Origin: Mesorhizobium sp. 65-26
Lineage (GTDB): Bacteria > Pseudomonadota > Alphaproteobacteria > Rhizobiales > Rhizobiaceae
Length of the DNA: 64,000 nt
Assembly: GCA_001899205.1 (NCBI GenBank)
Contig: MKVL01000032.1
Coordinates: 178,897-242,896 of the forward strand
Reading direction: 5' to 3'
Part shown: positions 96 through 21,098 of the stretch, one piece after another
How positions within the stretch are numbered: the stretch's first letter is position 1
How the letters are laid out: every line of letters begins with the position of its first letter
Position numbers and translations under genes: made by a program
Notes under the pieces: generated by a model
Told to the model about the DNA's origin: nothing
The model's database searches: none
The model's input: only the letters and a program-made list of their open reading frames with translations

Positions 96-3000
96 TCACT
101 CGGCGGCCTTGGGGAAGGCGACGGCCTGCTCGCCGCCTGGCTTCTCTTTCTCGGCGGCGATCGGAGTGGCCGCGCCCTTGCCTCGGCGGAAAATCCTGCG
201 GAAGAACGCGTAGAAGCGGCTGTTCTTGCTGCGGGTAAAGACCATCAGCATGGACGGCGTCACGACCAGCGTCAGCACTGTCGCGAAGGACAGGCCGAAG
301 ACGATCGCCGAGGACAGCGAAATCCACCATTGCGTCGACGGCGCGTTGATCGTCGTCTCATGGTGGAAGATCTCCAGCCCGAGGCCGAAGGCGATCGGCA
401 GCACGCCGAGGATCGCCGACACCGCCGTCAGCACCACCGGGCGAGCGCGCTCGCGGCAGGTCTGCAGCACGGCCTCCATCTTGTCCCAGCCTTCCTCGCG
501 CAGTCGGTCGTAGGTGTCGATCAGCACGATGTTGTTGTTCACCACGACGCCGGCCAGCGCGATGACGCCGATGCCCGACATGACGATGCCGAAGGCCTCG
601 CCCGTCAGGAGCAGCCCAAGGAAGACGCCGATCGTCGCCATGATCACGCAGGACAGAACCATCAGCACGCTGGTGAACTTGTTGAACTGCATCAGCAGCA
701 CAAGGAAGATCAGTCCGATCGCCGCGCCGAACGCCTTCATCAGGAAGGCGCCGGCCTCGGCGCTGTCCTCGTTGGAGCCGGCAAGCTTCCAGCGTATGCC
801 GTTGCCGAGATCCATGCCGGCGACCGCCTGCGTCACCTCTTGCTGCACCGCCGCCACCTGGGCGCCGGCGGCGACGTTGGCCTGGACCACCACCGTGCGG
901 GCCCCATCGATGCGATTGAGCACGCCGACGCTGGGCTTCGGCTCGCGGATGACGAAATTCGAGATCGGCACCGCGCCCTGGGCGGTCTGCACCCTGAGTT
1001 CGTCCAGCGTCGACAGCGTGCGCCGGTCTTCCGGCAGTCGCAGCCTGATATCGACGGCCTTGTCCGCGCCGGCCGGACGATACTCGCTGAGCTTCAGGCC
1101 GTTGGTGACCAGTTGCACCACGGTTCCGACCGACATCGGGCTGACGCCGTACTGTGCGGCCTTGGCGCGGTCGACCCGCAGCGCCCAATCGACGCCGGGC
1201 GGCGGCAGGCCGTCCGATATGTCGATGACGTTGGGCACCTTGGCGATGCGCGCGGCCACGGCGCGGGCCTTGTCGTCGAGCCCCTTCGGGTCCACGGCCG
1301 AAAGCCGGATCTGGATCGGCTTGCCGGTCGGCGGGCCGGCCTCCGGCACGCGCACCTCGACGTCGACGCCGGGAATGCCGGCCATGGCGACGCGCAGGTC
1401 GCTGAGGATCTGGTTGGCCGACTTGCGCTCACGCCAGTCGACGAATTCGTACTGGATAACGCCGACGACATCCTCGGGCACGTCCTGGCCGCCGCCCTGC
1501 GTCTTGCCGACGCGGGTATAGACCGACTTGACGCCCGGCCAGCCGAGCAGCCTGTTTTCCGCCGTGCGGGTCGCGGCGTCCATCTCGGCCAGCGAAAGGT
1601 TGCCGCGGGCATGCACGTAGAGCAGGCCGTAATCCGGCTCGACGCTGGGGAAGAACTCGACGCCGGCGCCGTATTTCGAATAGGCGTAGCCGACGCCGAA
1701 CAGCAGCGCGACGGTGAGCAGGATGACGGTGATGGGGAAGCGTACCGCCTGCTTGACCACGGCCATGTACAGGCCGTCGCGATGATCGTCCTCATGATGC
1801 AGTGGCGCCTTGGCGAAGATGGCGCCCAGCGTCGGCGTGAACACCAGCGCGTAGAGCATGGAGGCCGACAGCGTCACGATCAGCGTGATCGGCATGTACT
1901 TCATGAAGTCGCCGATGATGCCCGGCCAGAACAGCAGCGGCGAGAAGGCGGCGATGCGCGTCATGGTCGCCGCGATGACGGGACCTGCCATGCGCCTGGC
2001 GGCAAGCGCGAAGGCATCGGCCTTGTGCATGCCCTCGCTCATGCGCCGCTCGGCGAATTCGGTGACGATGATGGCGTCGTCCACCAGCATGCCGACGGCC
2101 AGGATGAGGCTGAACAGCACGATCATGTTGATCGTGTAGCCCATCATGGCGAGCAGCAGGATGCCCATCAGGAAGGATGACGGGATGGCGAGGCCGATGA
2201 GCAGCGAGGCGCGTCCCGACAGCGCGTAGAGGATGACGATGAAAACCAGGATGACGGCGATCATCACATGGTTCTGCAGGTCGCCCAGCAACTGGTTGAC
2301 GAAGACCGACTTGTCCTGTGTGTAGGTGACATGCATGCCCTCGGGCATGGTCTTGATGAACGCGTCGGAGACGGTCCGCACCTTGGCCAGCGTGTCGATC
2401 AGGTTGGCGCCGATGCGCTTCTTGACCTCGATGGCGATCGCCGGCTTGCCGTCGAGGCGGGTCACCGTCTCGGCGTCCTTGAAGGTCGAGCGTATGGTGG
2501 CGATGTCCTTGGCCTGGACGACCGCGTTGGGCGTGGCCACGACCGGCAGGTTGGCGACGTCCTCGGGCGTCTCGATCAGCGACGGCACCTTGACGGCGTA
2601 CTTGCCCTCCGAGCCCTCGATGTTACCGGCGGCGACGAGGCTGTTGGAGGCGCCGACGCCCTGCATCATCTGGTCAAGCTGAAGACCGTAGGACGACAGC
2701 TTCACCGGATCGATGACAACCTCGACGAGGTCCTCGCGAGACCCCTGCAGCGAGCCTTCCAGAACGCCGGGCACCTCTTCAATGCGGTCGCGCAGCTCGC
2801 GCGCGGCGGCCGTCAGCACCCGCTCCGGCACGTCGCCCGACAGCGTCACAACAAGCACCGGGAATTCCGACACGTTGACTTCAGTAACCACAGGTTCTTC
2901 CGCAGCTTGCGGCAGGTCGGCCTTGGCGTCCTGCACCTTGCTACGCGTATCCTGCAGCGCGGTGGCCAGGTTGGTCTGCGGCTGGAATTCGACGAGCACG

Positions 3001-3269
3001 TAGCCGCCGCCCTGGAAGGCGGCCGAGCGCATCTCCTTGAGTCCCTTGAGGCTCTTGAGCTTGGTTTCCATGGGCCGCAGCAGCAGCCTCTCGGAATCCT
3101 CGGGCGAAATGCCCTGATAGATCAGGCTGACATACATCATCGGAATCGGAACGTCCGGCTCCGCTTCCTTCGGCGTCGACTGATAGGCGAAGGCACCCGC
3201 GATCAGCAGGAAGACCAGCACGGCGATCGTGAGGCGGGCGTTGTGGATTGCAAGTCTGACGATGTCCAT
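96..3269 (-). CDS. Efflux RND transporter permease (AcrB/HAE1-like)
   Basis: Inner-membrane proton-driven multidrug or metabolite efflux pump, 1057 residues, the usual length for the family. It starts with a single N-terminal membrane helix (residues about 12-30), followed by a large periplasmic porter loop, helices 2-6 (about 335-495), a second periplasmic loop and the C-terminal helix bundle. The TM4 motif GMLVDDAIIV at about residue 390 carries the paired Asp of the proton relay. The ATG lies 75 bp downstream of the membrane-fusion-protein stop, so the two genes form one transcription unit. No outer-membrane channel gene is in view, so a TolC-like partner must be elsewhere. The substrate cannot be told from sequence. 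Confidence 0.95.
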   Translation of the reverse strand: MDIVRLAIHNARLTIAVLVFLLIAGAFAYQSTPKEAEPDVPIPMMYVSLIYQGISPEDSERLLLRPMETKLKSLKGLKEMRSAAFQGGGYVLVEFQPQTNLATALQDTRSKVQDAKADLPQAAEEPVVTEVNVSEFPVLVVTLSGDVPERVLTAAARELRDRIEEVPGVLEGSLQGSREDLVEVVIDPVKLSSYGLQLDQMMQGVGASNSLVAAGNIEGSEGKYAVKVPSLIETPEDVANLPVVATPNAVVQAKDIATIRSTFKDAETVTRLDGKPAIAIEVKKRIGANLIDTLAKVRTVSDAFIKTMPEGMHVTYTQDKSVFVNQLLGDLQNHVMIAVILVFIVILYALSGRASLLIGLAIPSSFLMGILLLAMMGYTINMIVLFSLILAVGMLVDDAIIVTEFAERRMSEGMHKADAFALAARRMAGPVIAATMTRIAAFSPLLFWPGIIGDFMKYMPITLIVTLSASMLYALVFTPTLGAIFAKAPLHHEDDHRDGLYMAVVKQAVRFPITVILLTVALLFGVGYAYSKYGAGVEFFPSVEPDYGLLYVHARGNLSLAEMDAATRTAENRLLGWPGVKSVYTRVGKTQGGGQDVPEDVVGVIQYEFVDWRERKSANQILSDLRVAMAGIPGVDVEVRVPEAGPPTGKPIQIRLSAVDPKGLDDKARAVAARIAKVPNVIDISDGLPPPGVDWALRVDRAKAAQYGVSPMSVGTVVQLVTNGLKLSEYRPAGADKAVDIRLRLPEDRRTLSTLDELRVQTAQGAVPISNFVIREPKPSVGVLNRIDGARTVVVQANVAAGAQVAAVQQEVTQAVAGMDLGNGIRWKLAGSNEDSAEAGAFLMKAFGAAIGLIFLVLLMQFNKFTSVLMVLSCVIMATIGVFLGLLLTGEAFGIVMSGIGVIALAGVVVNNNIVLIDTYDRLREEGWDKMEAVLQTCRERARPVVLTAVSAILGVLPIAFGLGLEIFHHETTINAPSTQWWISLSSAIVFGLSFATVLTLVVTPSMLMVFTRSKNSRFYAFFRRIFRRGKGAATPIAAEKEKPGGEQAVAFPKAAE

Positions 3270-3344
3270 GACTCTGCCTGCTATGAATCTCGTAGCGAGC
3301 CGCGTGGCGGCCCGTTTTTGGTTCCAGGTCGTGTCGCGCCGGCG

Positions 3345-9673: not shown

Positions 9674-10762
9674 TCAGGCCACCAGTTCCGGCAGCGGGCC
9701 GACATAGCGCGATTGCGGGCGGATGAGCCGGCCGGTGAGCTGCTGCTCGCGCGCATGCGCGACCCAGCCGCAGACGCGGCCGGCGGCAAAGACGTTGGTG
9801 AACGCCTCCTTGGGAAAGCCGGCCGCCTCGAGCAGCAGGGCCGTGTAGAATTCGACATTGGTCTGGATCGAGCGCGACGGCTTGGCCACCCGCAGCACGT
9901 CGAGCGCCGCCTGCTCCACCGTCTCGGCGAAGGCCAGCCGGCCGACCGCGCCACCGGCGGCGACGAGCTTGCGAACCACCGCCTTCAGCACGTCGGCGCG
10001 GGGATCGCGCACCCGGTAGATACGGTGGCCGAAACCCATGATGCGCTCGCCGCAGTCGATCTCGGCACGCAGCCACGTGGCCGCGTCGCCGCTCTCGGCG
10101 ATCGCATCCAGCATCTCGATCACCGGTCCGGGCGCGCCGCCATGCAGCGGCCCCTTGAGAGCGCCGAGGCCGGCCAATATCGCCGACGTCAGCCCCGCCT
10201 GCGTCGAGGCCACGACGCGGGTCGCGAAGGTCGAGGCGTTGAGGCCATGGTCGCAGACCGTCACGAGATAGGTATCGAGTGCCTTCGCCAGCGCCGGCGA
10301 AGCGGTGTCCCCCTTCAGCATCCGCAACATATCGGCTGCGTGGTCGGCCTGGGCATCCGGCGAGACCGGCTGTTCGCCCCGGCCCATCCGCAGCAGGGCC
10401 GGCGTCAGCACGGCGGGCGCGGCGATCAGGCGAAGTGCGTCCGCCAGCGTCTTGCGGTCGGGCAGCAGTGCCATGCCGGCGCGCATGCCACTGTAGACAT
10501 CGAGCGCGGCCAATGCGCCGAGAACCGGCCGCAGCCGCTCGAACACCTCGGCGCGCGCCTGTCCGAGGCTTTCCTTCAGGCCGGCATCCTCGGGCAGGTC
10601 GTCGAAGAAGCCCTCGAGCAACAGGTGCGCCACCTGGGCGTAGGACCGGCGGCCGGCAAGGTCCGCAAGTGAGTGGCCCCGTATCGTCAGGCGGCCGCCA
10701 AGGCCATCGACGTCGGAAAGCACCGTTTCCGCCGCCACGACTTCATCCAGCCCGTTTGCCAT
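9674..10762 (-). CDS. Citrate synthase / 2-methylcitrate synthase family protein
   Basis: Condenses oxaloacetate with acetyl-CoA or propionyl-CoA, 362 residues. The short citrate synthase fold is complete. The substrate His motifs are CDHGLNAST (about 210-218), GPLHGGAPGP (about 240-250) and GFGHRIYRVRDPRAD (about 280). The position normally held by the catalytic Asp in NVDF reads NVEF (TNVEFYTALLL), a conservative but unusual Glu. It is divergent from the HTH-containing paralogue at 10856, with about 93 bp between the starts, so the two are probably co-regulated and may form a mixed complex. Citrate and methylcitrate specificity cannot be separated here. Confidence 0.9.
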   Translation of the reverse strand: MANGLDEVVAAETVLSDVDGLGGRLTIRGHSLADLAGRRSYAQVAHLLLEGFFDDLPEDAGLKESLGQARAEVFERLRPVLGALAALDVYSGMRAGMALLPDRKTLADALRLIAAPAVLTPALLRMGRGEQPVSPDAQADHAADMLRMLKGDTASPALAKALDTYLVTVCDHGLNASTFATRVVASTQAGLTSAILAGLGALKGPLHGGAPGPVIEMLDAIAESGDAATWLRAEIDCGERIMGFGHRIYRVRDPRADVLKAVVRKLVAAGGAVGRLAFAETVEQAALDVLRVAKPSRSIQTNVEFYTALLLEAAGFPKEAFTNVFAAGRVCGWVAHAREQQLTGRLIRPQSRYVGPLPELVA

Positions 10763-10830
10763 TGCTGTCTCCTTCTGCGCTTTCGGTCTTGACCCGTTCG
10801 CGATCGGAGATAAGGGTGGGCAACAATTCC

Positions 10831-10855
10831 ATCAATCTTGATCAATAGAATCAAT
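10831..10855. promoter_or_regulatory. Phased ATCAAT repeats between divergent citrate synthase genes
   Basis: ATCAAT occurs at 10831, 10841 and 10850, spaced 10 and 9 bp, close to one helical turn, and includes the palindrome TTGATCAA (10838-10845). It abuts the ATG of the HTH-bearing citrate synthase. It could be an operator for that gene's own DNA-binding domain; this is inference. Confidence 0.4.
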
Positions 10856-12004
10856 ATGTCCGAGTGGCTGACGCGGGAGGAGGCGCTGGATCGCCTCAGG
10901 GTGAGGCCGCAGACCCTCTATGCCTATGTCAGCCGGGGTCGCATCGGCATGCGGCCGGACCCGACCGACCCACGCCGCAGCCAGTATCGCGCCGACGACA
11001 TTGCCGGACTGGCGAGCCGGCGCGCGCGCGGCAGGCGCGTTTCCGCGATCGCCGAAAGCGCGATCGCCTGGGGCGAGCCGGCGATAGCCACCACCATTTC
11101 CACCGTCCTGCATGGCCGGCTGATCTATCGCGGCCACGACGCGGCGATGCTGGCGGCGCATGCCACGCTGGAGGAGACGGCGGCCATCCTGTGGGCCGCG
11201 CCACAACCGCCGGTCTTCGGCACGCCCGCGCCAACAGGCTCGTTGGGCGAGGGCCGCCCGGCGATATTCGCCTGCCTCGCCACGCTGGCAGGCGATGGCA
11301 GTGCCTCGCTCGGACGCGGCACGGCGGCGCTGCATGCCGACGCCGCCGAGGCGATAGGCGCGCTGGGCGGAGCCGTCGGCGCGGCACCCGGCGACGATCC
11401 CATCCATGCACGCCTGGCGCGGGGCTGGTCGCTGGATGGCGATGGTGCGGAAGCGATCCGCCGCGCGCTGGTGCTGCTTGCCGATCACGAACTGAACGCC
11501 TCGACCTTCGCGGCCCGCGTCGCCGCTTCGACCGGGGCGCCGATGGCCGCCTGCCTGCTGGCCGGTCTTTCCGCGCTCTCGGGTCCTCGCCATGGCGGCG
11601 CCGGCGAGGCCGTCACGCAACTGGCCGAGGATGCCGCGCGGCATGGCGCCAGCCGGGCACTGGAGCGCTGGCTGGACCATGACAGGCCGCCACCCGGCTT
11701 CGGACATCAGCTGTATCCCGAGGGTGACGTGCGGGCAGCCCCCCTGCTGGCGGTAGCCGATCTCGACGACACGATGCGGTCTCTACGGGACGCGGCCTTC
11801 GCCATGACCGGCGCGAGGCCCAACATCGATTTCGCCCTGGCCGCCCTGACGCGAAGCCTCGGCCTGCCGTCCGACGCGCCGTTCCGGCTGTTCGCGCTCG
11901 GACGGGCGGTCGGTTGGACGGCACATGCGGTGGAGCAAGTGACGAGCCGCGGCCTGATACGGCCGCGCGCCCGTTACGAAGGGCCACTTCCCGCTTCGGA
12001 CTGA
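10856..12004 (+). CDS. Citrate synthase family protein with N-terminal helix-turn-helix
   Basis: The 382-residue protein starts with an excisionase/MerR-type winged helix (LTREEALDRLRVRPQTLYAYVSRG, then DPRRSQY; residues about 4-45) and continues as a citrate synthase. Substrate His motifs are DHELNAST, GPRHGGAGEAV and GFGHQLYPEGDV, and the catalytic Asp is kept in RPNIDFALAAL. I prefer the ATG at 10856; a TTG at 10838 in frame would add six residues. The fusion suggests an enzyme that also binds DNA, or a DNA-binding domain that has become a scaffold. It is divergent from the simpler paralogue. Similar divergent pairs occur in Rhizobiales to my knowledge; the DNA target is not known. Confidence 0.88.
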   Translation: MSEWLTREEALDRLRVRPQTLYAYVSRGRIGMRPDPTDPRRSQYRADDIAGLASRRARGRRVSAIAESAIAWGEPAIATTISTVLHGRLIYRGHDAAMLAAHATLEETAAILWAAPQPPVFGTPAPTGSLGEGRPAIFACLATLAGDGSASLGRGTAALHADAAEAIGALGGAVGAAPGDDPIHARLARGWSLDGDGAEAIRRALVLLADHELNASTFAARVAASTGAPMAACLLAGLSALSGPRHGGAGEAVTQLAEDAARHGASRALERWLDHDRPPPGFGHQLYPEGDVRAAPLLAVADLDDTMRSLRDAAFAMTGARPNIDFALAALTRSLGLPSDAPFRLFALGRAVGWTAHAVEQVTSRGLIRPRARYEGPLPASD

Positions 12005-15088: not shown

Positions 15089-15310
15089 GGCAAGCAGCCG
15101 CCTGAAGATCGGCCCGGCGCCTTCCCGCACCAATCCAAGCGGGAACGCCGGGTTCCACCCTCCAGAACCAGCCCCTAGCAATGGTCGGTCGCGACCCGTT
15201 GCGCCAAATCGGCACGCGAAAGTTAACGCCCCTGCCGCATCTGGCTCCTCGGCGGTGCGCAACCCTGTGGATTATCGGTGGAGAACCTGTGCGCAACACA
15301 AGATGTTGCG

Positions 15311-15362
15311 GTGAACAAAACGGGAAAATCTCGCCATCTCTGATTCGTCGCCGATTCGTTCC
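15311..15362. repeat. Duplicated 52-bp module, copy 1
   Basis: Begins GTGAACAAAAC (15311-15321) and ends with a 22-bp block (15341-15362, starting TGATTCGTCGCC, ending GATTCGTTCC). Copy 2 at 15596-15647 has both blocks identical and the same 30-bp offset, while the 19 bp between the blocks differ. Each 22-bp block contains two GANTC sites. Confidence 0.85.
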
Positions 15363-15595
15363 GGCTTTGGCCGGAAAGTTAACGAAAACAGCGCGGCGGC
15401 CCATGCCTCCCGGTCAGGAACCGTTAGGAAACGTCAACAATTTCATAATGTTGAGATAGAGGCCGAAGAGCAGCACGGACGATCGCCGGCAAAGGTTAAC
15501 GCCGTGCCGCGACTCCATCCGGCCAAGCATGAATCGGGCCAATCCCGAGATTCAGCATGTGGTGAGACTCGGCGTCACAAAATCCATATATAGCC

Positions 15596-15647
15596 GTGAA
15601 CAAAACCTGAATCAGAACGAGTCAGTGATTCGTCGCCGATTCGTTCC
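15596..15647. repeat. Duplicated 52-bp module, copy 2
   Basis: Same two blocks and spacing as the copy at 15311-15362: GTGAACAAAAC at 15596-15606 and the 22-bp block at 15626-15647. It runs directly into the SOS-type box at 15643-15657. Confidence 0.85.
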
Positions 15648-15657
15648 AGACTCGTTC
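15643..15657. promoter_or_regulatory. Candidate LexA (SOS) box
   Basis: GTTCCAGACTCGTTC fits the alphaproteobacterial LexA consensus GTTC-N7-GTTC exactly. It lies about 160 bp upstream of the helicase start. A one-mismatch copy in the other orientation (GAAC-N7-GAAT) begins at 15598. Confidence 0.5.
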
Positions 15658-15815
15658 CGAGCGTTAATCCTGAGCCGCTGTCCGACTCCGGAAAAAGGCC
15701 GCGAAAGCACCACCGGGAATATTCCGCTTTCGCTTCGTGCCTGAAATCCCTATGTGTCGCCTGGTGCCTCAGCGCACTCCCGACGAAGCGAGGCCAGACG
15801 CCTTATTCCGTGCCG

Positions 15816-18800
15816 ATGAACATCCAGCCCAAACACACAGAGCCGCTCATCCTTTCGGGCCGCGACGTCACCGCGGTGCTGGGGCCGACGAACACCGGCA
15901 AGACCCATCTCGCCATCGAGCGCATGGTGGCGCATGACACCGGCGTCATCGGCCTGCCGCTCCGGCTGCTGGCGCGAGAGGTCTACACCCGGGTCTGTGA
16001 AAAGGTCGGCGCCAACAAGGTGGCGCTCGTCACCGGCGAGGAGAAGATCCAGCCGCCCGGCGCCCGCTATTCCGTCTGCACCGTGGAGGCCATGCCGCGC
16101 GAGACCGACGCTGCCTTCGTCGCCATAGACGAGGTGCAGCTCGCCGGCGACCTCGAGCGCGGTCACATCTTCACCGACCGCATCCTGCACCTGCGCGGCC
16201 GCCAGGAGACGCTGCTGCTGGGCGCGGCCACTATGCACGGCATCCTGCAGAAGCTGTTGAAGGGCGTTTCCGTGGTGACGCGGCCGCGCCTGTCGCACCT
16301 GGCCTATGCCGGCTCCAAGAAGCTGACCCGCCTGCCGCGCCGCACGGCGATCGTCGCCTTCTCGGCCGACGAGGTCTACGCCATTGCCGAGCTGATCCGT
16401 CGCCAGCAGGGCGGCGCCGCTGTCGTGCTCGGCGCGCTCTCGCCGCGCACCCGCAACGCGCAGGTCGAGATCTTCCAATCCGGTGACGTCGACTATCTCG
16501 TCGCGACCGACGCCATCGGCATGGGTCTCAATCTCGACCTCGACCACGTCGCCTTCGCCCAGAACCGCAAGTTCGACGGCTACCAGTACCGCAACCTGAC
16601 GGCCGCCGAGCTTGGCCAGATCGCCGGCCGCGCCGGACGGCATCTGCGCGACGGCACCTTCGGCGTCACCGGCCAGGTCGACCCGCTGGACGAAGACCTC
16701 GTCAAGAAGATCGAGAGTCACGATTTCGATCCGGTGAAGGTGCTGCAGTGGCGCACCGCGCATTTCGACTTCGCCAGCCTCGACGCGCTGAAGCGCTCGA
16801 TCGAGACCAACGCCCCGGTGGAAGGCCTGACCCGCGCCCTGCCGGCGGTCGACGCCCAGGCGCTGGAACACCTGTCGCGCGACGAGGAAATCCGCGCGCT
16901 GGCCAGCAGCCCGGCCCGCGTCGCGCTGCTGTGGGAAGCCTGCGCCCTGCCCGACTACCGCAGGATCGCGCCTGCCCAGCACGCTGACCTCATCGCTTCG
17001 ATCTACATGGACCTTGCCCGGCATGGCCATGTCGACGAGAACTACATGGCAGAGCAGGTCCGCCGTGCCGACACCGCCGAGGGCGACATCGACACGCTCT
17101 CGCACCGCATCGCCCAGATTCGCACATGGACTTTCGTGTCGAACCGACCCGGCTGGCTTGCCGATCAGGCACACTGGCAGGAAAAGACACGAGAAACCGA
17201 AGACAGATTGTCTGATGCGCTGCATGAGCGGTTGACGAAACGCTTCGTAGACCGCAGGACTTCCGTCCTCATGCGGCGCCTAAGAGAAAATACCATGCCT
17301 GAAGCCGAAATCAGCCCCACCGGAACCGTCCTCGTCGAAGGCCATCACGTCGGCGAGTTGCAAGGGTTCCGCTTCACCGCCGACCAGAGCGCCGGCGGCG
17401 AGGACGCAAAGGCGGTGCGCAACGCCGCGCAGAAGGCGCTGGCCGCCGAATTCGACGCACGCGCCGAACGCTTCGGCGCCTGCGCCAATGGCGATCTGGC
17501 CCTCGGCTCGGACGGCGTCCTGCGCTGGATTGGCGCGCCCATCGGCACGCTGGTTTCCGGCGACGAGCCGCTGCGCCCGCGCCTCGTGCTTTTGGCCGAC
17601 GAGCAGCTCACCGGCCCTGCCCGCGACAAGGTCGCGGCGCGCGCCGAGCGCTTCGTCAATTTCCAGATCGAGTCGCTGCTCAAGCCGCTGGTCGACCTCA
17701 AGAACGCAGAGCAGATTTCGGGCATCGGCCGTGGCATCGCCTTCCGGCTCGTCGAGCAGTTCGGCCTCATCAACCGCCGCGACATCGCCGAGGAGATGAA
17801 GTCGCTCGACCAGGAAGGCCGTGCCGCGCTGCGCCGGCTCGGCGTGCGCTTCGGCGCCTACCATGTCTTCGTCCCGGCGCTCATCAAGCCGGCGCCGGCC
17901 GGCCTGGTGACGCTGCTCTGGGCGCTCGGCAATGACGGCAAGGACAAGCCCGGCTTCGGCGACGTGGTGCACGCGCTCGCCTCGGGCCGCACCTCCGTCG
18001 TCATCGACCAGGCCTTCGACAAGTCCTTCTACCGGCTGGCGGGCTACCGCAACCTCGGACGCCGCGCCGTTCGCGTCGACATCCTCGAGCGCCTGGCCGA
18101 CCTGATCCGTCCGGCGACCAACTGGAAGCCCGGCCTCGGCCAGCGCCCGGACGGCGCCTTCGACGGCCAGGCCTTCATGGTGACGCCGCCGATGATGTCG
18201 ATCCTCGGCGCCACCGCCGACGACATGGAAGAGATTCTCAAGGGCCTCGGCTATCGCGCCGAGCCAAAGCCCGCCGCCGAGGTGAAGGCGAAGCTCGAAG
18301 CTTTGGACAACGCCGCCCGCGAGGCAGCAGCAGCGAAGCTGGCGGCCGACGAAGCCGCGCGCGCGGCGAAGGCCGCCGAGGCGGCTGCGGCCGATGTGGT
18401 TGCCGGGACGCCTGACGGCTCGGAGCCCGCTGCCGCTGAAATGCAAGCGGCCGGGACTGCGACCGAAGGCACGGCGGAGCCTGTCGCCGAAGCACCTGTG
18501 GAAGCCGCGTCGGAGGAACAGCCCCAAACTGAAATCACGGAAGAAGCTGCTTCAGAGGACGTCGCTCCAGAGCAAGCGGCCGAGGCTCCCACCTCCCCCT
18601 CGATGGGAGAGGCCGAGGCGCAAGGCGAAGCTGGCGTGGTTGATAGCACCGACGATGCAGCCGGTGCCGACAACGCTGGCGCTCCCCGCGAGGAAGAGGC
18701 TGCCCCGGGTACGGCCTCGGCCGAAGCCTCGGCCGAAGCCGAAGAACCCAAGCCGATCCTTCTTTGGCGGCAGGCCCGTTTCGACCACCAGCGTCCGCGC

Positions 18801-19196
18801 CATCGCGACAACCGCCGTGACAATCGTCCGCGCGCGGGCCAGCCGGCACGCGAGGCCCAGGCCGATGCAGCGGGCGGGCAGCCCGGTGCCAGGCCGCCCC
18901 AGGAGGGACGCCGCGACCAGCGCGACGGCGCCGGCAAGCCTCGTTTCGACCGCAGCAAGTTCAAGCCGAGGCCGGACCAGGAGAACGGCGAGCGGCGCGG
19001 CGGCAAGCCACAGGGCGAACGTCACGAGCGGCGCGACGGCAGGCCGGACTGGAAGGGCCGACAGGAAGGCAAGGGCGGCGGCTCCGGCGGCAAGCCGGCC
19101 TTCCAGGGCAAGCCGCGCGAGGAGCGCCCGGCGCGCTTCGATCCGGACTCGCCCTTCGCCAAGCTGGCTGCCCTGCGCGACCAGTTGAAGAAGTAG
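15816..19196 (+). CDS. SUV3-like DExH RNA helicase with long low-complexity C-terminus
   Basis: ATP-dependent RNA helicase related to mitochondrial SUV3, which unwinds RNA for degradation. The core has Walker A GPTNTGKT (about 23-30), a DExH-like DEVQ motif (IDEVQLAGD), VVLGALSPRTRNAQ, and motif VI QIAGRAGRH near 270. After residue about 820 a low-complexity tail begins: first Ala/Glu-rich and acidic, then Arg/Gly/Lys-rich and basic (about 985-1110), ending DPDSPFAKLAALRDQLKK. The start is ATG at 15816, or GTG at 15810; neither has a strong ribosome-binding site. Part of the acidic tail (18590-18632) matches an intergenic palindrome. Length is 1126 residues. A role in RNA decay or ribosome assembly is inferred from the fold and the adjacent S4 gene. 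Confidence 0.9.
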   Translation: MNIQPKHTEPLILSGRDVTAVLGPTNTGKTHLAIERMVAHDTGVIGLPLRLLAREVYTRVCEKVGANKVALVTGEEKIQPPGARYSVCTVEAMPRETDAAFVAIDEVQLAGDLERGHIFTDRILHLRGRQETLLLGAATMHGILQKLLKGVSVVTRPRLSHLAYAGSKKLTRLPRRTAIVAFSADEVYAIAELIRRQQGGAAVVLGALSPRTRNAQVEIFQSGDVDYLVATDAIGMGLNLDLDHVAFAQNRKFDGYQYRNLTAAELGQIAGRAGRHLRDGTFGVTGQVDPLDEDLVKKIESHDFDPVKVLQWRTAHFDFASLDALKRSIETNAPVEGLTRALPAVDAQALEHLSRDEEIRALASSPARVALLWEACALPDYRRIAPAQHADLIASIYMDLARHGHVDENYMAEQVRRADTAEGDIDTLSHRIAQIRTWTFVSNRPGWLADQAHWQEKTRETEDRLSDALHERLTKRFVDRRTSVLMRRLRENTMPEAEISPTGTVLVEGHHVGELQGFRFTADQSAGGEDAKAVRNAAQKALAAEFDARAERFGACANGDLALGSDGVLRWIGAPIGTLVSGDEPLRPRLVLLADEQLTGPARDKVAARAERFVNFQIESLLKPLVDLKNAEQISGIGRGIAFRLVEQFGLINRRDIAEEMKSLDQEGRAALRRLGVRFGAYHVFVPALIKPAPAGLVTLLWALGNDGKDKPGFGDVVHALASGRTSVVIDQAFDKSFYRLAGYRNLGRRAVRVDILERLADLIRPATNWKPGLGQRPDGAFDGQAFMVTPPMMSILGATADDMEEILKGLGYRAEPKPAAEVKAKLEALDNAAREAAAAKLAADEAARAAKAAEAAAADVVAGTPDGSEPAAAEMQAAGTATEGTAEPVAEAPVEAASEEQPQTEITEEAASEDVAPEQAAEAPTSPSMGEAEAQGEAGVVDSTDDAAGADNAGAPREEEAAPGTASAEASAEAEEPKPILLWRQARFDHQRPRHRDNRRDNRPRAGQPAREAQADAAGGQPGARPPQEGRRDQRDGAGKPRFDRSKFKPRPDQENGERRGGKPQGERHERRDGRPDWKGRQEGKGGGSGGKPAFQGKPREERPARFDPDSPFAKLAALRDQLKK
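18590..18632. repeat. Intergenic-type palindromic repeat inside the helicase coding region
   Basis: The segment starting CACCTCCCCCTCGATGGGAG resembles the palindromic elements seen between genes at 21251-21279 and 29338-29494. Here it is translated in frame, giving TSPSMGEAEAQGEAG within the acidic tail. Confidence 0.5.
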
Positions 19197-19270: not shown

Positions 19271-19657
19271 ATGGCCGTTGATGCACGCCAGCGCATCGAC
19301 AAGTGGCTGTTCTTTTCGCGCGCAGTCAAATCCCGCTCGCTCGCGGCCAGGCTCGTCGTCGCCGGCCGCGTCCGTATCAATCGCGACAAAGCAGCGCAGG
19401 CCTCCGATCTGGTCAGGCCCGGCGACGTCCTGACCATCACACTGGACGGCCGCATCCTGGTCTGGAAGGTGCTTGGCGCCGGCGTCCGCCGCGGGCCGGC
19501 CGAGGAGGCGCGCCTGCTCTACGAGGACATGTCGCCGCCGCCCGCCAGGAAAGGCGAGGCCGTTCCGGACGCCATTCCGGCCCTGCGCGAGGCCGGCAGC
19601 GGCCGCCCGACGAAGCGGGAACGCCGGCAAACCGACCGGCTGCAGCGCGACGATTGA
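19271..19657 (+). CDS. RNA-binding S4 domain protein (Hsp15/HslR-like)
   Basis: 128 residues. An S4 RNA-binding fold occupies residues about 6-65 (QRIDKWLFFSRAVKSRSLAARLV then RINRDKAAQASDLVRPGDVLTI), followed by a basic Pro/Arg-rich tail. Hsp15 of E. coli is a heat-shock protein that rescues stalled 50S subunits carrying nascent peptide. The gene lies 74 bp after the helicase, the gap being filled by a palindromic repeat, and may share its transcript. No strong ribosome-binding site precedes the ATG. Confidence 0.88.
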   Translation: MAVDARQRIDKWLFFSRAVKSRSLAARLVVAGRVRINRDKAAQASDLVRPGDVLTITLDGRILVWKVLGAGVRRGPAEEARLLYEDMSPPPARKGEAVPDAIPALREAGSGRPTKRERRQTDRLQRDD

Positions 19658-19807
19658 GGATATGATCTCTTCCCATCGCCGGGAGAGGCTGGAAATCCGT
19701 TCCGGAAACGCGCCTTCGGCGGGAATCCCCGCCCTTGCAAGCGGCGGGCAAAGGCGTTACCTCACCCGAAAAGCCCAGCAAAAATTGGGACGTCCCGGAG
19801 CCGACCG

Positions 19808-20146
<339 letters not shown>

Positions 20147-20516
20147 ACAAGCCGGCAATCGGGCCGGCTTTACCTTGCGTAAACGGGATTGCGCATTGGC
20201 CGCCTTGACAGGCGACGATGCCGCATGGCCTTCGCTTATGCAGCAAAACCTTGATTCTTCCGACTTTTTGTGTTACATCAGCGAAACATGCCGGTGACAC
20301 AACGTCGATTTATGGCGCAGACGCCCCAAATCACTGAAAGGTGAAATTCTCAATCCGGACCAGAGCGATCTGGGCTGGCGGTCGCAACATGTGCGGTTTG
20401 CCGGTCCCGGCCTTTCCGGAGGGAGCACCTGTTGTGCGGCTAACGATCGGCTCGGCCGATCCGCGCGAGTTCGGGCCGGCAGGACGCCGGTACCACAACA
20501 AGGAGTTCAGGGCGTA
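20147..20516. other. Intergenic region upstream of carD
   Basis: 370 bp that must hold the carD promoter. An inverted TTGTGT (20267) / ACACAA pair flanks bases around 20270-20300, but I cannot assign a promoter or operator with confidence. Confidence 0.35.
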
Positions 20517-21098
20517 ATGGCAACGATCACCCCGCAGAAGAAGTCAGGCGCCGCGCGCCACGGTTTCAAGACCGGCGAGTTCATCGTGTACCCGGCGCAC
20601 GGCGTCGGTCAGATCGTTTCGATCGACGAGCAGGAAGTCGCGGGCCACAAGCTGGAACTGTTCGTCATCGACTTCCAGAAGGACAAGATGCGGTTGAAGG
20701 TTCCGGTCGCCAAGGCAACCTCCATTGGCATGCGCAAGCTCTCGGAAGAGGATTATGTCGAGCGCGCGCTGAAGGTCGTTCAGGGCCGCGCCCGCGTGAA
20801 GCGCACCATGTGGTCGCGCCGCGCGCAGGAATACGATGCCAAGATCAATTCGGGCGACCTGATCTCGATCTCGGAAGTCGTGCGCGATCTCTACCGCGCC
20901 GACAACCAGCCGGAGCAGTCCTACTCCGAGCGCCAGCTCTATGAAGCCGCGCTCGACCGCATGGCCCGCGAAATCGCGGCCGTGAACCGCATGTCGGAGA
21001 CCGAGGCTGTGCGCTTGATCGAGGTCAACCTCAACAAGGGCCCGAAGCGCGGCGCCAAGGCCGACAACGAGGAAGCCGAGCAGGAAGAAGCTGCCTGA
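20517..21098 (+). CDS. carD: CarD-family transcriptional regulator
   Basis: Global regulator that binds RNA polymerase beta through an RNAP-interacting Tudor-like domain and stabilises open complexes. 193 residues. The Tudor-like part reads FKTGEFIVYPAHGVGQIVSIDEQEVAG (about 17-43), and the helical DNA-interacting domain contains VKRTMWSRRAQEYDAKINSGD (about 100-120). The acidic tail (EEAEQEEAA) is typical of rhizobial copies. The ATG at 20517 is preceded by AAGGAG about 12 bases upstream; the frame extends to 20391 without homology. Confidence 0.94.
   Translation: MATITPQKKSGAARHGFKTGEFIVYPAHGVGQIVSIDEQEVAGHKLELFVIDFQKDKMRLKVPVAKATSIGMRKLSEEDYVERALKVVQGRARVKRTMWSRRAQEYDAKINSGDLISISEVVRDLYRADNQPEQSYSERQLYEAALDRMAREIAAVNRMSETEAVRLIEVNLNKGPKRGAKADNEEAEQEEAA

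Follow-up and report, generated by a model that had tools for sequence, protein, structure and literature searches.

Upstream of the gene for a Suv3-like helicase, a cluster of GANTC sites marks two tandem copies of an 82-bp module, arranged as direct repeats spaced 285 bp apart. Our best explanation of this arrangement, to which we assign a probability of roughly 0.5, is that it constitutes a cis-regulatory module of the helicase operon that would be read by CcrM and GcrA. The broader statement, that the region is a cis-regulatory element of this operon, is very probably correct judging from sequence comparison. That GcrA and CcrM act at the module is about an even bet, and the action of LexA there is proposed tentatively. 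The features discussed below are collected in Table 1, with positions in the window, by which we mean the whole 64-kb stretch of DNA that was analysed.

Table 1. Features of the region upstream of the helicase gene and of the genes that follow it
Feature	Position	Strand	Basis or remark
GTTAAC motif	15222..15227		further copies at 15378 and 15495; GTTAA at 15663
DnaA-box-like site, TTATCCACA with 1 mismatch	15266..15274	-	only one in the window
Distal module copy, 285 bp upstream of the proximal one	15301..15382	+	direct repeat, profile matches
Paired YGATTCG of the distal module, at 15341 and 15352	15341..15358	+	sequence
GATTCAGCATGTGGTG block upstream of the proximal module	15549..15564	+	recurs with variation in many same-family proximal units (by eye)
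Proximal module, GAACAAA-N4-GAAT ... TGATTCG ... CGATTCGTTC-N7-GTTC ... GTTAA	15586..15667	+	profile matches, alignment; 30/30 same-genus loci
GAACAAAACCTGAAT, GAAC-N7-GAA(T), second LexA-like direct repeat, in inverted orientation	15598..15612	+	sequence
TGATTCG, core of the proximal module, near-invariant; match to the GcrA motif YGAKTCK	15626..15632	+	sequence match
CGATTCG, second YGAKTCK site, 11 bp further on	15637..15643	+	sequence match
GTTCCAGACTCGTTC, exact GTTC-N7-GTTC, the alphaproteobacterial LexA-box pattern	15643..15657	+	sole such site in the window
Helicase-gene promoter (sigma-70, predicted), CTTTCG-N17-CTATGT	15727..15755	+	by eye
Suv3-like DEXQ-box helicase gene	15816..19196	+	Pfam PF22527, E=1.4e-26; ORF opens at GTG 15810, ATG at 15816
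Co-directional followers: S4-domain protein (19271-19657), FdxA (19808-20146), CarD (~20523-21098)	19271..21098	+	possibly one operon

The GANTC cluster and its background

The twelve CcrM (GANTC) sites in 347 bp that the initial annotation had reported were all recovered on recounting, exactly at the positions given there (15342, 15353, 15511, 15531, 15549, 15566, 15609, 15619, 15627, 15638, 15649 and 15684, within 15342-15688); ten of them are indeed crowded at 15511-15688, and the cluster lies, as described, between the end of phaB (15088) and the start of the helicase gene (15816). GANTC is depleted here, so the accompanying expectation of one site per 256-280 bp overestimates its frequency: the 64-kb window contains 86 sites versus a shuffle mean of 309. 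Outside the window, 535 sites in 391,117 bp sampled from the same genome (6.84 Mb in 42 contigs) correspond to one per 731 bp, and 1101 sites in 800,000 bp of two same-genus genomes to one per 727 bp, so that only about 0.5 site is expected per 347 bp.

The suggested sliding-window count, run on the 391-kb sample plus the 64-kb window as the background set, gave 12 sites for the cluster versus 6 for the next best 347-bp stretch, found in the sample; the remainder of the window reached no more than 5. Among 40 stretches from relatives, the richest 347-bp window had at most 5 GANTC in 39, and the fortieth (L067), with 8, contains the orthologous locus. For one given 347-bp window, uncorrected for the number of windows, the Poisson probability of 12 or more sites is 1.8e-13; tripling the rate raises it to 3.9e-8. 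One might appeal to chance or local composition, given that the phaB-helicase intergenic region is less G+C-rich (58%) than the surrounding window and that in Ensifer intergenic DNA is about twofold richer in GANTC, according to the part of PMC8725594 used here. Both the count of 6 at best elsewhere in 391 kb and the one-window figure at the tripled rate stand against this explanation, which is refuted by the conservation of sites and spacing in relatives and whose probability we regard as negligible.

The second-densest GANTC patch in the window has 5 sites in about 250 bp (3039-3289), three of them within the 5' end of a minus-strand ORF (96-3269) that by eye resembles an RND-type transporter and two just upstream of it.

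Anatomy of the 82-bp module

Far from being lost in close relatives, an outcome that the initial annotation had listed as counter-evidence, the sites are retained: all 30 same-genus loci, our own included, have 7-14 GANTC in the ~600 bp before the helicase gene, and the GANTC spacing series 10-8-11-11 is unbroken in 28 of them. An alignment of 25 of these 30 loci, those passing a length filter, presents an ~80-bp block that is near-constant between drifting flanks. We then compared proximal modules more widely, aligning 34 of 36 chosen ones (L148 and L155 were left out on coordinate mapping). The whole alignment contains just two single-base gaps, i.e. the spacing is fixed, and A15, C16, A19, A25, GATTCG (42-47), T55, GTTC (58-61) and GTTC (69-72) are invariant. 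Since position 41 is always C or T (19 and 15 modules respectively), the core of the module is YGATTCG. By inspection, GAACRAA (13-19) and TTYGTTC (55-61) are inverted copies with their centres 42 bp, or four helical turns, apart, and each of these half-sites is paired 11 bp away to form GAAC-N7-GAA and GTTC-N7-GTTC. The distal copy in our window retains GAACAAA, GAA, both YGATTCG, the inner GTTC and GTTAA, and is missing the outer GTTC.

The YGATTCG core is kept in 125 of 134 module copies overall: in the proximal copy of 30/30 loci of the own genus, 29/32 of the family and 13/13 of other families, and in 53/59 distal copies. The second YGAKTCK site is kept in 29/30, 23/32 and 2/13 proximal modules of the same three sets. 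Most of the remaining GANTC sites have disappeared from other families (GANTC53 kept in 2/13, GANTC64 in 3/13, GAATC24 in 4/13 and GANTC34 in 6/13), where GAAC (12/12) and both GTTC (13/13) are retained; gapped cells are excluded from these per-position counts. Because most sites are lost there and GATTCG, GAAC and GTTC-N7-GTTC are kept, the cluster is not explained by mere selection for GANTC density, and the conserved entity looks like a protein-binding array, of which the twelve-site cluster in turn looks like a local elaboration.

By eye, a block GATTCAGCATnTGGTG lies ~22 bp ahead of many same-family proximal modules and echoes the module's own CATnTAG, and motifs like GTTAAC recur before and after the modules of relatives.

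The conserved ~82-nt tandem units between genes could also be read as a small RNA, a leader RNA or a small peptide gene, and tandem small RNAs do occur in rhizobia. In many module copies three frames (plus 0, minus 0 and minus 2) run without a stop; stops interrupt the other three (plus 1, plus 2 and minus 1) in nearly all ungapped ones. However, RNAalifold on the 34 modules gave -1.17 kcal/mol with no pair showing a two-sided change and no conserved RNA structure, and Rfam had no family match for the region, its only two matches being at chance level and inside phaB. An RNA or peptide gene is very improbable, and a small RNA was rejected as unlikely on these two results. A hairpin formed by the GAACRAA and TTYGTTC arms was likewise rejected, as the pairs do not covary (by eye). 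EcfG-type promoters have the form GGAAC-N16/17-GTT. For an EcfG-type or other promoter inside the module, with AxATxTxG as the -10, no consistent -35 was seen by eye.

Distribution of the module and linkage to the helicase gene

A DNA search with 15555-15700 (E<=0.1) matched 204 of 297 family genomes and 80 of 109 genera, with at most two candidates scored per genome and the weakest matches marginal. Using an iterated profile, we located the module upstream of the helicase gene in 30/30 same-genus, 32/48 other-genus same-family and 13/20 other-family loci. The 16 of 48 same-family loci with no profile match before the helicase belong to a set in which 20 loci had been picked because the family DNA search had listed no match for them. 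The other-family set represents 20 of 24 genomes; among its 7 loci lacking the module, L156 and L158 are not anchored on the helicase motif and L157 is short, and L158, with a weak profile match (2.8e-4) under the inclusion line, was counted as being without. The 75 module-bearing loci have one copy in 20 cases, two in 51 and three in 4, and copies are spaced 209-285 bp apart in 58 of 59 cases, the remaining spacing being 162 bp.

The sequence-only model R1 found just the two tandem copies in our own genome at E<=0.01, under strict filters and with the best 15 of 1660 candidates scored. At class level, under strict filters and the same cut-off, it matched 34 of 289 genomes, our own included. 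A scan with an exact 20-base pattern retrieved at least 119 loci, and the matches listed include Rhizobium, Ensifer, Mesorhizobium, Brucella, Hoeflea, Phyllobacterium and Agrobacterium. All these conservation counts lean towards conserved copies, because modules were found by similarity. Judged by this distribution, the module is old and present in many alphaproteobacterial families. At one other-family locus (L149, G055:C1:3717920-3719220) we counted 15 GANTC in the 650 bp upstream of the helicase gene, many of them in GACTCG motifs ~21 or 31 bp apart, as if helically phased.

The helicase gene is downstream in 27 of 29 class-level loci retrieved by the module alone, L353 and L358 being the exceptions without a helicase in the locus. 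Similarly, the helicase motif LGPTNTGKT follows within 1.5 kb on the same strand in 109 of the 119 pattern loci listed. In seven of the other ten the sequence ends within 221 bp of the match; L260, L269 and L299 continue for 388-666 bp past it with the helicase absent, a second module appearing before the sequence end in L260 and other sequence, apparently genes, following the match in L269 (by eye). The adjacency to phaB, which had been part of the initial description, is accidental: PhaB was found in the ~1.2 kb upstream of none of the 13 other-family loci that carry the module, and within ~1.2-1.5 kb upstream in 12 of the 27 module-bearing same-family loci among L085-L112. On this comparative evidence the module travels with the helicase, not with phaB.

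Several loci are worth recording in this context. At L353 (G406) a clear module (nhmmer E ~1e-12) without a helicase in the locus appears to be followed directly by a short ORF that by eye looks like an exported protein, possibly a second client gene of the module. At L104, L269 and L275 a module copy is separated from the helicase, or from the next copy, by ~0.7-1.8 kb of sequence that apparently contains other genes. Elsewhere in our window, 9674-12004 contains two divergent citrate-synthase-like ORFs (by eye), the second starting with a helix-turn-helix-like stretch.

The helicase, S4-domain, FdxA and CarD genes possibly form one operon. A looser form of the predicted helicase promoter is present in 29 of 30 same-genus loci, and in our window its start lies 84 bp past the last YGATTCG. 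At class level, only ~80 bp separate the module from the apparent start codon in L352, L367, L372 and L374 (by eye).

A replication origin as an alternative

The initial annotation had also considered an origin-like locus or a CcrM titration site, and more generally the region could serve chromosome maintenance as a CcrM or DnaA sink, a secondary origin-like site or a segregation site. In Alphaproteobacteria oriC adjoins hemE, and the hemE-type oriC carries GANTC, DnaA and CtrA motifs. The very dense GANTC, together with GTTAAC and perfect or near-perfect DnaA boxes beside modules (L089, L098, L355 and L359; by eye), would fit such a function. These last four come from scattered lineages, in which perfect or DnaA-box-like TTATCCACA sites are near the modules, and by eye DnaA boxes or GTTAAC adjoin modules in several lineages.

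However, the distance from the helicase gene to hemE is 419-498 kb in 11 of 12 relatives and 828 kb in the twelfth, G003 (for G009, which had two hemE-family matches, the nearer and slightly weaker one was used); in our own genome the helicase gene and hemE are on different contigs. No DnaA-box cluster was found within the 64-kb window, only the single one-mismatch box of Table 1, and in G033 the best DnaA-box pair in the 800 kb scanned is 395 bp from the hemE match. The proposed GC-skew check showed no consistent sign change in this genus, where skew is weak. In G033 the sign is constant across the locus, with mean skews of 0.007 to the left of hemE (12 stretches), 0.018 from hemE to the locus (10) and 0.025 beyond it (5), which argues against an origin; in G009 the two 20-kb stretches flanking the locus have opposite signs (-0.007 left, +0.031 right), a local difference that counts in favour, the skew being positive again further left. 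We therefore rejected a replication origin, with hemE distant, no DnaA-box cluster in the window and no skew change in G033, the local difference in G009 being noted. A wider chromosome-maintenance role is improbable as well, since the module is bound to one gene across families and not to a chromosomal position. Titration of CcrM, for its part, would leave unexplained the rigid non-GANTC letters and the constant place before one gene.

GcrA, CcrM and LexA-type repeats

As far as the relevant sections of PMC7987155 go, the hypothesis for Caulobacter is that activation by GcrA requires TGATTCG or, in a wider form, YGAKTCK; in Brevundimonas a preference for an extended GANTC motif was not found; the Caulobacter GcrA regulon was defined by peaks at most 40 bp from a start site; and GcrA/CcrM regulons are extensively rewired, with few common targets even between two close relatives. 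The extended form YGAKTCK does occur at our locus: among the twelve sites it is found at four on the plus strand (15341, 15352, 15626 and 15637) and two on the minus strand (15565 and 15648), and the four plus-strand sites are the paired cores of the two modules. The predicted promoter (by eye only) at 15727-15755 lies beyond the ~40-bp GcrA range from YGATTCG.

Our own genome (G000) encodes GcrA (E=2.9e-58) and a RAMA-domain protein (E=4.5e-17) which we take to be CcrM. At class level, where a module with E below 1e-4 was called confident, GcrA exceeded the cut-off in 29/29 genomes with a confident module versus 8/20 module-negative ones (Fisher 1.4e-6), and the RAMA protein was found in 28/29 versus 11/20; the 20 controls are those listed out of 255 module-negative genomes and were taken irrespective of helicase presence, and the GcrA contrast is confounded by phylogeny. 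Two of the four genomes with weak module matches are without GcrA (G465 and G575). Both proteins are present in 52/52 further genomes (own, family and order), with or without the module, and their universality there therefore gives no explanation of module loss and makes co-occurrence within the order uninformative.

GTTC-N7-GTTC is the LexA box of Alphaproteobacteria in the portions consulted of PMC12700426 and PMC3323433. We found this pattern at 15643-15657 and in 34/34 aligned proximal modules. Our own lexA promoter carries GTTCCAGTTGTGTTCC and, by eye, our own recA promoter carries GAACAAAAAAGGTACA. The outer GTTC is present in just 3 of 58 distal copies, so GTTC-N7-GTTC is mostly missing there; the pattern also decays outside the order, class-level copies often having imperfect right boxes. 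The box at 15643-15657 ends 70 bp ahead of the predicted -35, in a promoter recognised by eye only, and the helicase is not named in the part of the alphaproteobacterial LexA regulon text that we draw on (PMC3323433).

These repeats raise the question of whether methylation matters at all. In a cis-regulatory module without a methylation role, LexA or another repressor or activator would bind GAAC/GATTCG/GTTC, and the GANTC sites would be by-products of the 11-bp repeats. The loss of most GANTC outside the family with GAAC and both GTTC kept, the constant N of the core GANTC in 34 sequences, and the identity of GTTC-N7-GTTC with the LexA box, as in our own lexA promoter, are all in agreement with this. 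Three observations nevertheless make it somewhat unlikely. The GANTC that spans families always has a pyrimidine before it and a G after it, as proposed for GcrA. GANTC sites outside the modules are more frequent at loci with a module, with per-locus means of 2.9 (13 loci), 2.7 (27) and 1.6 (5), versus 1.0 (7) and 1.1 (15) at loci without one. Finally, none of the 29 confident class-level modules is in a GcrA-less genome.

Proposed mechanism and significance

The initial annotation's idea of a methylation-timed switch for the helicase operon is unproven and is still the best reading, considering that the module goes with the helicase, that its core is YGATTCG and that GcrA and RAMA accompany 29/29 and 28/29 confident class-level modules. 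In the CcrM/GcrA-read module that we favour, the working unit would be the 82-bp module, here in two tandem copies. Passage of the replication fork would leave its GANTC sites hemimethylated until CcrM acts late in the cycle, and GcrA would bind the methylated YGATTCG core and alter sigma-70 transcription of the helicase operon. With a second protein, most likely LexA, on the GAAC/GTTC repeats that flank the core at 11-bp periodicity, a single promoter region would sense the state of replication and possibly DNA damage as well. In this genus, spacers and second repeats may have been turned into GANTC sites, giving the twelve-site cluster. A bolder form strikes us as rather unlikely: no CcrM/GcrA target yet described would be as deeply conserved as this module, a nucleoprotein switch at a single locus whose geometry is held almost to the base pair across the Alphaproteobacteria, and a methylated YGATTCG with two LexA-type direct repeats would couple fork passage and DNA damage to a helicase with an unrecognised cell-cycle role.

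If the preferred reading is true, a module that many families have kept with a single fixed GcrA-type site would stand apart from the rewired GcrA/CcrM regulons described in the relevant part of PMC7987155 and would be well suited to finding out what GcrA actually recognises. The module draws attention to this little-noticed Suv3-like helicase, and to the S4, FdxA and CarD genes after it, as a possible cell-cycle or repair gene, and with one locus and one core it offers a simple handle on how methylation state may be combined with a second DNA-binding protein. Among the literature titles and abstracts searched, none described a GANTC-rich element before this helicase.

Comparison with known systems

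With the hemE-type alphaproteobacterial oriC the region shares a mix of GANTC, GTTAAC and occasional DnaA boxes, but it lies away from hemE, with no DnaA-box cluster in the window and no skew change in G033. With the MucR-occluded, hypomethylated GANTC promoters (PMC5172544, in the part consulted) it shares several GANTC in one region, and a bound protein could block methylation here too.

Compared with alphaproteobacterial LexA (SOS) operators, the region has an exact GTTC-N7-GTTC similar to the box in our own lexA promoter. Unlike them, this box has an inverted and imperfect partner box together with a GANTC core, it stands 70 bp before the predicted -35, and the helicase goes unnamed in those sections of the SOS regulon text to which we refer.

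The nearest likeness is to the Caulobacter GcrA/CcrM promoters (mipZ, podJ and ctrA P1), as presented in the parts used of PMC3667746 and PMC7987155: GANTC sites lie upstream of the gene, here of the YGAKTCK type, and the genome encodes GcrA and CcrM-type genes. Unlike those promoters, the region has a greater distance to the predicted promoter and a rigid 82-bp module with flanking GAAC/GTTC repeats, in 1-3 tandem copies with up to 12-15 GANTC. GcrA regulons are reported as rewired in the sections of PMC7987155 cited above, whereas the module is found in many families.
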